51,300 nucleotides of DNA from positions 68,939-120,238 of the forward strand of contig MHVH01000006.1 in the NCBI GenBank assembly GCA_001825155.1. The letters are read 5' to 3'. A program made the translations under genes and the position numbers. This DNA comes from Candidatus Zambryskibacteria bacterium RIFCSPHIGHO2_01_FULL_46_25. GTDB lineage: Bacteria; Patescibacteriota; Minisyncoccia; Phycocordibacterales; Zambryskibacteraceae. Positions 48,338-51,300 of this stretch are shown here, in pieces (within the stretch, counting starts at the first letter, position 1; each line of letters starts with the position of its first letter). The notes beneath the pieces were generated by a model that ran no database searches, was not told the origin of the DNA, and worked only from the letters and a program-made list of their open reading frames with translations.

Positions 48338-49609
48338 ATGTCTAAGATAGTTGAAAAATTGGGATTAATTTTCGGAGACCAGGTTCTCCGCAGGCGCATA
48401 TGGTGGGCGCTTGGTCTTCTTGCTGTTACTCGAGTCTTCGCCGTCATTCCAATTCCTGGTATCGACGCTTTGAGGCTCCAGTCGCTCTTCTCCGGCAGTG
48501 AATTTCTGAATCTTTTAAATATTTTCTCCGGTGGCGGGCTCTCTAACCTCTCGATAGTCATGCTCGGAGTCGGTCCGTACATCACAGGCTCGATTATCAT
48601 GCAGCTTATGACTGTCATGTCACCCAAACTCAAAGCAATGTACCAGGAAGAAGGGGAGGCGGGCAGGAAGCGCTTCGCTCAATACTCAAGACTTCTTACC
48701 GTGCCTCTGGCTCTTGTGCAAGGATACGCCTTCATCAAGCTTCTGCAGGGTCAGGCGGTGCTGGGCCAACTGACTATGGGCGAGCTTGCCGTAGATTTGC
48801 TTGTGATTGTCGCAGGCTCGATGCTTCTCGTCTGGATAGGCGAGCTTATAACGGAGTTCGGCATCGGCAACGGTATTTCCCTCATCATCTTCGCCGGTAT
48901 CGTCTCCCAGCTTCCCGCGACACTCTCACAGCTTACCTTCACTTTCGATGTTTCCCAGCTTCCCGTATATGTCGCCGGGCTTGTGGTGGCGCTTCTCGTT
49001 ACCTTCGGCGTGGTGGTGGTAACGGAAGCGGAACGGCCGATACCCATTACTTATGCCAAACAGGTGCGTGGCGGGCGCTCCTTCGGTGGACTCTCCACTT
49101 ACTTGCCGCTTAGGGTAAACCAGGCGGGAGTTATACCGATAATCTTCGCTCTCTCCTTACTTCTCTTCCCTCAAATGATTTTCCAATTCCTGTCGCAATC
49201 GAGCGTTGTAGTTGTCGCCGGTCTCGCGAGCTTCTTTCTCGCTCTACTTGCCAACACTTGGTTTTATACTTCGGCCTATTTCGTGCTCGTAGTGCTCTTC
49301 ACCTACTTCTACACGGCCGTGACCTTCGACCCCGATACCATCTCAACCAATTTGCAGAAAACGGGAGCCTTCATTCCCGGCGTGCGACCAGGACTTTCAA
49401 CTGCTGACTACATTTCCCGCGTACTTACAAGGCTCACGCTTGTCGGGGCGCTCTTCCTCGGCGTAATCGCCATATTGCCTCTCATCTTGCGCTCCATTAC
49501 CGGCATACAGTCGCTCGCCATCGGTGGTACGGCACTTCTCATCGTGGTGTCAGTAGTAATTGATCTAGTAAAAAAGATAGACGCTCAAATTTCAGTGAGA
49601 GAGTATTAA
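48338..49609 (+). CDS. secY: preprotein translocase subunit SecY
   Basis: FAVIPIPGIDAL, SIVMLGVGPYITGSIIMQLM, GNGISLIIFAGIV, RPIPITYAKQV. Confidence 0.97.
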   Translation: MSKIVEKLGLIFGDQVLRRRIWWALGLLAVTRVFAVIPIPGIDALRLQSLFSGSEFLNLLNIFSGGGLSNLSIVMLGVGPYITGSIIMQLMTVMSPKLKAMYQEEGEAGRKRFAQYSRLLTVPLALVQGYAFIKLLQGQAVLGQLTMGELAVDLLVIVAGSMLLVWIGELITEFGIGNGISLIIFAGIVSQLPATLSQLTFTFDVSQLPVYVAGLVVALLVTFGVVVVTEAERPIPITYAKQVRGGRSFGGLSTYLPLRVNQAGVIPIIFALSLLLFPQMIFQFLSQSSVVVVAGLASFFLALLANTWFYTSAYFVLVVLFTYFYTAVTFDPDTISTNLQKTGAFIPGVRPGLSTADYISRVLTRLTLVGALFLGVIAILPLILRSITGIQSLAIGGTALLIVVSVVIDLVKKIDAQISVREY

Positions 49610-49644: not shown

Positions 49645-49673
49645 TTGACATTTTTCCTGTTTGGGTGTATGAT
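49645..49673 (+). promoter_or_regulatory. promoter TTGACA-N17-TATGAT with GTTTGGGTG element, ahead of the DGR target gene
   Basis: ttgaca tttttcctgtttgggtg tatgat. Confidence 0.8.
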
Positions 49674-49755
49674 ATAAAAAGGACAGTAAGCCAAAGGCAT
49701 TCCGCCTCGTGGCTAGAGCGACACGTTCTTAGGAACAGGTCGCGGGGAGAAGGAC

Positions 49756-50325
49756 ATGTCAATCATGACGAGTCGGCAAGCTTCGGAACTCGACTTCGCA
49801 TTCGAGCGCAACGGGTGGACGTCGGAAGACGTCAAGAGGGTGAGCGGCGGCGATTTGCTCGCCACGCTTCTCCTCGTCGTGCGCGGAGCGGCCGAGGTGG
49901 TGGTGAAGATTATCACTCGCACGGTCAAGGTCGACCGCAGCCGCACCGCGGCCGAGGTGATCGACGCCACGGGCCGGGTCAAGTGGTATATCGACCAGGA
50001 AGCCCTGGCCGAGATGCCGCTCGACGGCAAGTCGGAGGACACAGTCGAGTTCTTTGAGCTCAACTATGACCCTTCCGTCGACGAGCTCGACCGCGAGTAC
50101 GAAGCTCGCGGTCTGCGTCCCGACCCCGCGGCCGTGGCGCAAGCCATGGCCGACGACCCCGCCTTAGCCGACGAGCGCCCCGTTGGTGTTCAGTGGCGAG
50201 ACGCTCGAGATCGAGCTTGCTACGCGATCTTCCACCGCGACGTTAGCGAGCACTACGTCGTCTTCGTCAACCGGTTCGACCACAGGTGGCTTCGGCACTA
50301 CCGCTTCGCGGGCGTCCACAAGTAG
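49756..50325 (+). CDS. DGR target (variable) protein
   Basis: 189 aa; SD gagaaggac; C-terminal CYAIFHRDVSEHYVVFVNRFDHRWLRHYRFAGVHK is the variable copy of the TR at 50645. Confidence 0.88.
   Translation: MSIMTSRQASELDFAFERNGWTSEDVKRVSGGDLLATLLLVVRGAAEVVVKIITRTVKVDRSRTAAEVIDATGRVKWYIDQEALAEMPLDGKSEDTVEFFELNYDPSVDELDREYEARGLRPDPAAVAQAMADDPALADERPVGVQWRDARDRACYAIFHRDVSEHYVVFVNRFDHRWLRHYRFAGVHK
50218..50317 (+). repeat. DGR variable repeat (VR)
   Basis: Codon alignment to the TR: 15 substitutions, 13 at TR adenines, plus one codon indel. Confidence 0.9.
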
Positions 50326-50331
50326 CTCCTG

Positions 50332-50367
50332 GGTCTTGGGATTCTAGTTCTTTTGGATCCCTAGACC
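50332..50367 (+). other. hairpin just downstream of the VR/target stop (DGR post-VR hairpin candidate)
   Basis: ggtcttgggat ... atccctagacc, 10 of 11 positions paired, 14-nt loop. Confidence 0.55.
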
Positions 50368-50377
50368 TTGGTTCTCG

Positions 50378-50415
50378 GGCCCGGCATTCAGAAATGGATG
50401 TCGGGCCTTTTGTTT
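50378..50415 (+). terminator. terminator between target gene and TR
   Basis: gggcccggcattcagaaatggatgtcgggcctttt. Confidence 0.8.
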
Positions 50416-50644
50416 TGCTAAACTAATATCGGTAGTAGGCAAGTGCGGGCGATTAAGGTTCCCCGCCGCTGAATCCAGTATCCATGCATCGAGAATTTCC
50501 TAGACCAAGGTTTTGGAAAGAGTGGTGCATGCAAACTCAAAAAATGAAGATACTTGGTGCGACAAGCTAACGCATTATAATGCGGAATACGATACAGCTC
50601 TGCGAGCATTCAAAGAGCAGTGGCACAGAAGGCTTGTCGCACGA

Positions 50645-50741
50645 TGCTACGCGATCTTCAACCGCAACGACAGCAAGCGCAACGTCAACGTCAACCGGAA
50701 CGACAACAGGTGGAATCGGAACTACCGCTTCGCGGGCGTCC
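50645..50741 (+). repeat. DGR template repeat (TR)
   Basis: tgctacgcgatcttcaaccgcaacgacagcaagcgcaacgtcaacgtcaaccggaacgacaacaggtggaatcggaactaccgcttcgcgggcgtcc; AAC/AAT-rich template codons. Confidence 0.9.
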
Positions 50742-50751
50742 GCAAACCTCT

Positions 50752-51117
50752 TCATTTCTCCTCTGCTTTGGCGGGGGAGTTTTGTTTAATCATCTGATTG
50801 AGCCAGCCACCAATCATTTTCCCAACTTCATCTAGCGGTTCTGATATCAAAATATACTTCTTATTATCTATAGACTTTATCTCCCATAGAACCATGAGCA
50901 GAATCTTCAAAACCTCAAGTTTGCGAGAAGAATTTTCTAGGTGTATAGACTGCTTTTCTCTGGGCGAAAAGGTTGCCACAGCAATGCTTTCTATAATTTC
51001 TAAAAATAACTTATCTATCTTATTGCCGAGCGTGTATCGATTTACTTGGGGTAAAATTACATGAATCTTATGCCAAGCGAGATAAACATTTTTGATTCTG
51101 CTCAAAACTCCCGGCAA
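50752..51117 (-). CDS. DGR accessory variability determinant (Avd-like four-helix bundle)
   Basis: LPQVNRYTLGNKIDKLFLEIIESIAVATFSPREKQ...LEVLKILLMVLWEIKSIDNKKYILISEPLDEVGKMIGGWLNQM. Confidence 0.85.
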   Translation of the reverse strand: MPGVLSRIKNVYLAWHKIHVILPQVNRYTLGNKIDKLFLEIIESIAVATFSPREKQSIHLENSSRKLEVLKILLMVLWEIKSIDNKKYILISEPLDEVGKMIGGWLNQMIKQNSPAKAEEK

Positions 51118-51300
51118 AACTCGTTGGGGGGGGGCTTTTAAGAGGTTCAGTCATAGACATGATGATATCATCTCTGTCGAAAATCTTCTCGAGGCCTGGA
51201 AAGAATTCATAAGAGGTAAGAGGGGCAAGAGAGATGTCCAAGAGTTCCAGCTTCATCTCATGGATAATATTTTTTCGTTACATGAAGATTTAAAGAATAA
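51092..51300 (+). CDS. DGR reverse transcriptase N-terminus, truncated by window end; start uncertain
   Basis: Open frame from 51086: ...FKRFSHRHDDIISVENLLEAWKEFIRGKRGKRDVQEFQLHLMDNIFSLHEDLKN; typical DGR/group II-like RT N-terminus. TTG at 51092 in frame; ATG at 51061 would need -1 nt in the G9 run. Confidence 0.8.
   Translation, partial: MILLKTPGKTRWGGAFKRFSHRHDDIISVENLLEAWKEFIRGKRGKRDVQEFQLHLMDNIFSLHEDLKN

Follow-up and report, generated by a model that had tools for sequence, protein, structure and literature searches.

A simple repeat between avd and the reverse transcriptase gene as a proposed phase-variable switch of diversity-generating retroelements in Candidate Phyla Radiation bacteria

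The present study deals with a diversity-generating retroelement (DGR) at the right-hand end of a 51,300-nucleotide stretch of DNA (the window) from Candidatus Zambryskibacteria bacterium RIFCSPHIGHO2_01_FULL_46_25, a member of the Candidate Phyla Radiation (CPR; Patescibacteria). The cassette consists of a target gene that ends in a variable repeat (VR), a template repeat (TR), an antisense avd gene and a reverse transcriptase (RT) gene, and a run of nine G residues lies at the junction of the last two. This junction repeat is the main feature of the locus, and it was overlooked in the first-pass annotation of the window. The features of the cassette are as follows.

49756-50325, + strand: DGR target gene, an open reading frame (ORF) of 189 aa with the VR at its 3' end
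50218-50317, + strand: VR, 100 nt, one codon longer than the TR
50645-50741, + strand: TR, 97 nt, a near-repeat of the VR
50752-51117, - strand: conserved core of avd, recognised by three profile libraries; the listed ORF starts at TTG 51117
51061-51300, + strand: 5' part of the RT gene (PHROG Reverse transcriptase, E 1.1e-8), which continues to C3:899
51126-51134: G9/C9 tract between avd and RT, the proposed hypermutable frame switch
51152-51154, - strand: probable avd start ATG, 20 nt before the tract and conserved in the four closest DGRs

Results

The cassette is a DGR of the cellular CPR type

The first-pass annotation had described the near-repeat of the 3' end of the 189-aa ORF and had read it as the signature of A-to-N mutagenesis, and both the repeat and the reading stand. 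On recounting, the VR and the TR again differ by 15 substitutions, 13 of them at TR adenines and two at other positions (hypergeometric p = 3.2e-7, with 27 A in the 97-nt TR). The extra codon (3 nt) in the VR had escaped that annotation. The final 21 nt of the two repeats are identical, and an initiation of mutagenic homing region (IMH/IMH*) may lie there. In dozens of related loci 819 VR/TR differences fall on TR adenines as against 3 elsewhere, the latter counted over 2,790 non-adenine template positions in stretches that were selected for having few such changes. The TR sits just past the 3' end of avd in 68 of 75 relatives.

The neighbouring Avd-like protein that had been proposed was confirmed by profiles from Pfam (bAvd, E 2.9e-13, over the cut-off), PHROG ('Avd protein of DGR', E 1.8e-12) and NCBIfam (DivGenRetAVD, E 2.2e-16, though its 60 bits are under the 80-bit cut-off). 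Avd is under purifying selection, with dN/dS of 0.04-0.35 where measurable. The proposed RT N-terminus at the window end was likewise borne out by the PHROG match and by its continuation on another contig, where the complete enzyme that the annotation suggested looking for was found. The window ends where its contig (C6) ends, and the last 70 nt are identical to the first 70 nt of contig C3. The RT frame runs through this join to C3:899 and is followed by adk and map. We infer the join from the 70-nt overlap, the gene order and the continuous RT frame, which can be aligned with the RT of a second DGR of the same genome (DGR2; 79% identical over the aligned part). The complete RT carries the motifs LPLGNLTSQ and YADD and was aligned with 17 relatives.

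DGR2 (C1:25111-26511, minus strand) is 76% identical in DNA to the window DGR and has the same gene order of target, TR, antisense avd and RT. Its VR and TR differ by 22 substitutions, 16 of which are at TR adenines (p = 9.7e-8). Thus, because RT motifs, TR/VR pair, Avd, adenine specificity, a homologous second element and the relatives all agree, the cassette is a genuine DGR of the cellular CPR type.

In the window avd and RT stand head to head. The antisense Avd had been singled out as worth describing; it is real (50752-51117, minus strand) but is not peculiar to this locus, since avd and RT were encoded on different strands in all CPR loci of two systematic samples where avd was detected. 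Inversion of avd by flanking inverted repeats is unlikely, as avd is antisense in all these loci. Short arms could be seen by eye (GGGGGAGTTTTG near 50771 and CAAAACTCCC near 51103), and no inverted repeats of at least 20 nt were found. In L098, L104, L105, L112 and L102 the segment that links the tract to the Avd core contains a short palindrome of the AAAAGCACCGTCGGTGCTTTT type.

The avd/RT junction is repetitive across the CPR

In most DGRs of the window family the junction holds a run of G7 to G10. The main sample comprised the 80 best RT matches in GTDB genomes, labelled CPR or unassigned, from Zambryskibacteria, Nomurabacteria, Levybacteria, Woesebacteria, Peregrinibacteria, Berkelbacteria and others. 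A simple repeat was present at the junction in 79 of the 80, the exception (L155) having a truncated RT and no avd, and in 29 of 40 loci of a more diverse sample. G/C runs of 8 or more are confined almost entirely to this position: over the 80 loci (500 kb), 67 of 69 lie within the junction. A broken cellular DGR, L112, has a junction tract of G5 only.

The repeats are mostly G6-G14, and (GA)n, (CT)10, (TG)14, (GT)8, (ATTG)7, (CTGA)8, (TTGG)11 and (TGTCC)8 also occur. When loss is included, the kind of repeat changes 11 times on the RT tree, and several of these changes are required even if only well-supported branches are considered; L107 and L108, for example, are sister RTs with G9 and (TTGG)11, respectively. 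Since the unit differs between lineages and has changed several times on the RT tree, what is conserved at the junction is repetitiveness and not sequence. Tract length varies as well: the window DGR has G9 and DGR2 has G10, and relatives with similar flanks span G6 to G14 (L169 with G9 and L174 with G6, for instance). A fixed poly-Pro or poly-Gly coding role of the tract was rejected, as the lengths are not multiples of three and the units vary.

Repeat length sets the reading frame of avd

Beyond the tract, as seen from the Avd core, 87 of 90 loci have an open-frame ATG no more than 45 nt away; 300 letter shuffles gave a mean of 33 such loci and a maximum of 47. No stop codon interrupts the stretch from tract to Avd core in any of the 90. 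With the tract lengths of the assemblies, the nearest ATG is in frame in 27 loci, one base short in 28 and two bases short in 35 (chi-square p = 0.53). When every in-frame ATG up to 110 nt from the Avd core was accepted, 36 of the 115 loci with a repeat had avd in frame, a fraction of one third (binomial p = 0.69 against one third), as compared to all 15 of the head-to-head loci that have no repeat, 11 cellular and four on viral contigs (Fisher p = 1.9e-7). The frame of avd thus depends on repeat length, and its phase is near-random across genomes. Scrambled phase together with purifying selection on Avd is the pattern expected when changes in repeat number break and restore the frame.

The tract of the window and the possible joint control of RT

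With nine residues in the window tract, neither avd nor RT is in frame with an ATG before the tract. The avd ATG at 51152-51154 comes into frame only at a tract length of 8 or 11, where Avd would begin MTEPLKSPP(P)QRVLPGVL... The candidate RT starts (ATG 51061, ATG 51070 and TTG 51124) join the conserved RT frame, which begins at 51134, at the same two lengths only; from ATG 51061 the RT would then begin MNLMPSEINIFDSAQNSRQNSLGG(G)AFKRFSHRHDDIISVENLL... Between the tract and the first conserved RT motif of the window there is no ATG, GTG or TTG, unlike 56 of 75 relatives, where RT has an ATG after the tract. As assembled, the window DGR (n = 9) and DGR2 (n = 10) are both predicted to be OFF for both genes. 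Because the candidate RT start is in phase with Avd in 8 of 9 related loci of the window kind, a single tract could possibly switch both Avd and RT in this lineage, a suggestion that we put forward tentatively.

The two DGRs of this genome have more non-adenine VR/TR differences (2 in the window DGR and 6 in DGR2) than would be looked for from the 3 in 2,790 positions of the relatives. The surplus would fit a spell in the OFF state, although it is only suggestive.

DGRs of phages and viral contigs

Among phage DGRs of IMG/VR with avd and RT on the same strand, a repeat near the start of RT or avd was seen in 5 of 61, even by a lenient definition. Four head-to-head DGRs on viral contigs (L223, L224, L225 and L229) have no repeat and an avd ATG in frame. 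L223 stands beside an integrase gene, L224 beside a gene for a RusA-like resolvase and L225 near a terminase gene, and on the RT tree these three occupy separate places among repeat-bearing CPR relatives. Judging by sequence, the switch seems to have been lost from the phage copies, as if they were locked ON. Two further loci on viral contigs, L226 and L239, the viral origin of which is uncertain, have kept the repeat.

Other G tracts and RT genes of the genome

In the whole genome (582 kb) there are just four G/C runs of 9 or more, and two of them are at the two DGRs. A third, G10 at C5:40146-40155 (L027:146-155), was considered as a remnant DGR and rejected. The run lies a few codons downstream of a start ATG, and the 793-aa product of this gene has a start that resembles a signal peptide, a beta-helix and bacterial surface Ig-like domains. 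A tract length of 9 or 12 would put the gene in frame; at the 10 of the assembly it is OFF, and it probably encodes a phase-variable surface protein. As this tract likewise sets the frame of a gene, the organism would seem to use G tracts as switches. The fourth run, C9 at C7:3684-3692, is apparently outside any clear gene.

A third RT gene (C5:174310-175584, a 424-aa frame) was considered as a further DGR, which is not supported: its motifs are IPQGLAYSPLL and YLDD, it has a weak match to a group II maturase domain and its best PADLOC hit is RT_UG17.

Target gene

The 189-aa target protein has no match in Pfam, PHROG or NCBIfam. Its AlphaFold2 model (mean pLDDT 81) has no match in the PDB at E <= 0.001, and the match to a C-type lectin is weak (E 0.83). 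Homologues of the target gene are present in 14 of the 61 related genomes searched, its own genome included, and at least one of them has its own TR. Seven homologues (L064, L065, L066, L068, L069, L070 and L071) have no match to a window-type RT in the flanks that were fetched; these are possibly remote VR targets or orphan targets. A search of the cassette against Rfam gave no known RNA family.

Genome context and insertion site

Two features lie to the left of the target gene.

48338-49609, + strand: secY, the left neighbour of the cassette (Pfam SecY, E 1.9e-100)
49645-49673, + strand: promoter-like element TTGACA-17 nt-TATGAT before the target gene, read in the sequence

The cassette had been placed at the end of the spc operon. 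This had to be rejected: since adk and map follow RT, the actual order is secY-DGR-adk-map, and the cassette lies inside the gap between secY and adk. No other gene separates these two in most of 16 congeneric genomes; in the genome nearest by SecY (G014) they are adjacent, and there is no RT of the window-DGR family. The gap holds a DGR in 3 of 17 congeneric genomes, namely the window genome (49610-51300), G013, with a less similar DGR, and G002, where it was joined over a 141-nt contig overlap (C28/C1). The RTs of these gap loci (the window, L323, and L321 with L101) are only about 70% identical. The secY-adk gap is either a recurrent insertion site within the genus or the place of an old insertion with later replacement.

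A near-identical strong promoter-like element (TTGACA-17-TATGATATAAAAAG; 49660-49682 in the window) also stands before three other genes or small ORFs, its -10 part recurring at C6:95297, C3:41261 and C5:59501. With a predicted, consensus-like promoter before the target gene, the cassette may not need to rely on transcription from secY.

Both assemblies break inside the DGR, that of the window genome in RT (70-nt overlap) and that of G002 in avd (141-nt overlap). Strain variation inside the DGR is a possible cause.

Discussion

The regulation of DGRs is largely an open matter. Constant hypermutation loses good variants, and no hypermutation gains nothing. Our data suggest one way in which these demands could be balanced. 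By the mechanism taken from other DGRs, the TR transcript would be copied by RT with mutagenesis at adenines, and the cDNA would replace the VR at the 3' end of the target gene. A short and presumably hypermutable repeat, G9 in the window, stands between the start codon of avd and its conserved core. Slippage during replication would alter the length of this repeat within a population, and about a third of the length classes would have Avd in frame, as the dependence of frame on length across lineages indicates. With Avd out of frame mutagenic homing should be lost, given that Avd has been described as an essential DGR helper (PMC6642488; PMC10053308). In the window lineage, where RT has no start of its own after the tract and would be in frame at the same lengths as Avd (8 or 11), one tract could switch both. 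The expected outcome is a population of two kinds of cells, a minority that hypermutates the target and a majority that keeps it fixed.

We regard it as probable that mutagenesis is switched on and off by slipped-strand phase variation of Avd, and probably also of RT in the window lineage. The wider picture, in which a random, heritable and reversible avd-repeat switch operates across the CPR with the DGR on in a minority, phage relatives are locked ON and the tract of the window switches Avd and RT together, is one towards which we lean only slightly.

Several observations weigh against these readings. The tract lengths come from one assembly per species, and no variation within a population was seen in these. 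In the more diverse sample 11 of 40 loci are without a junction repeat. Most of the 11 repeat-less cellular loci resemble each other, so the 15 in-frame cases are not 15 independent events. Since some loci, the window included (51117), carry a TTG where the first conserved Leu of Avd is encoded, translation might start weakly downstream of the tract. The four closest DGRs (that of the window, DGR2 and those of G016 and G003) are all OFF; this could arise by chance (0.2), and it is also compatible with an avd that is dead or differently started. As regards joint control of RT, the candidate RT ATGs are antisense to conserved His codons of Avd, the coincidence of phase has one exception (G003), and the nine loci compared are related by descent.

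A repeat between two divergent genes could also act on transcription. In Haemophilus influenzae, TA repeats that lie between hifA and hifB switch expression by altering promoter spacing, and a repeat between divergent avd and RT promoters could in the same way change -10/-35 spacing or regulatory geometry. In all sampled repeat-bearing loci the repeat does lie between two divergent genes, and in the 56 of 75 with an RT ATG beyond the tract it is outside the RT coding sequence. Such transcriptional phase variation nevertheless seems improbable to us: the stretch from tract to Avd core is free of stops and an open-frame ATG precedes the tract in 90 of 90 loci, avd is always in frame where the repeat is missing, and the window has no intergenic room for a pair of promoters between the two coding regions.

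Slippage could instead take place during expression, RNA polymerase or the ribosome slipping on the tract so that a constant low level of Avd (and RT) is made at any length. Runs of G9 and G10 are slippery, and this would account for selection on an Avd that is out of frame in most assembled genomes. The phases, though, are spread evenly over the three classes with no single shift favoured, and repeats such as (CTGA)8, (ATTG)7, (TTGG)11 and (TGTCC)8 are not known as polymerase or ribosome signals but are typical of replication slippage, which makes this explanation unlikely. Decay of avd, a non-ATG start after the tract or sequencing errors in the tract, to which the use of draft metagenome assemblies and the TTG at the first conserved Leu (window 51117 included) might point, is very unlikely in view of repeats that persist across the CPR through many changes of unit, non-homopolymers included, of the 67 of 69 long G/C tracts that fall in the junction, of the in-frame ATG in 15 of 15 repeat-less loci, of the mere G5 in the broken L112 and of purifying selection on Avd.

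If phase variation of Avd by repeat length holds true, a phase-variable helper would be a slow random switch that controls a fast targeted mutator, and this would apply to a very large and mostly uncultured group of bacteria. Gene-calling programs would then overlook or shorten Avd in roughly two thirds of these genomes. Repeat-spanning reads in existing deep metagenomes reveal the distribution of lengths, so the switch is directly testable.

CPR DGRs and repeat-based phase variation are each well known, and their combination appears to be new in the literature searched: at title and abstract level, with subscription papers outside the search, the open-access literature gave no relevant report that joins DGRs with phase variation or repeat-length control, and nothing relevant on phase variation in Patescibacteria. 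The CPR-restricted cellular 'clade 2' DGRs resemble the window DGR in their RT with DGR motifs, adenine-specific TR/VR pairs, targets without recognised domains and CPR hosts (Roux et al. 2021, PMC8144416). Membership of the window DGR in this clade is suggested by its host and its similarity rather than by the tree of that study. The main text of the same paper makes no mention of a repeat at the avd/RT junction or of control by repeat length (PMC8144416). It does report lower-than-average activity of clade 2 DGRs in metagenomes (PMC8144416), as would be expected if most cells had their DGRs switched off.

Another close system is the DGR of Bordetella phage BPP-1 (mtd, avd, TR and brt), which like the window DGR has four components, a VR at the 3' end of the target and Avd as a required helper (PMC6642488; PMC10053308). 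In BPP-1 all genes run in the same direction. In the window, unlike BPP-1, avd lies antisense to RT in a head-to-head arrangement, and its start codon is set apart from the rest of the gene by a proposed hypermutable repeat. The closest parallel to the repeat itself is found in contingency loci with coding repeats, which include poly-G tracts in Campylobacter and Neisseria and tetranucleotide tracts in Haemophilus. There, as in the window, a short tandem repeat lies in the 5' coding region, its length class sets the frame and its unit varies among genes or lineages. At the DGR junction the lengths differ between assembled sequences, and reversible length change is a prediction. The gene that would be switched here also differs in kind, being part of the machinery of a targeted mutator and not a surface antigen or a modification enzyme.
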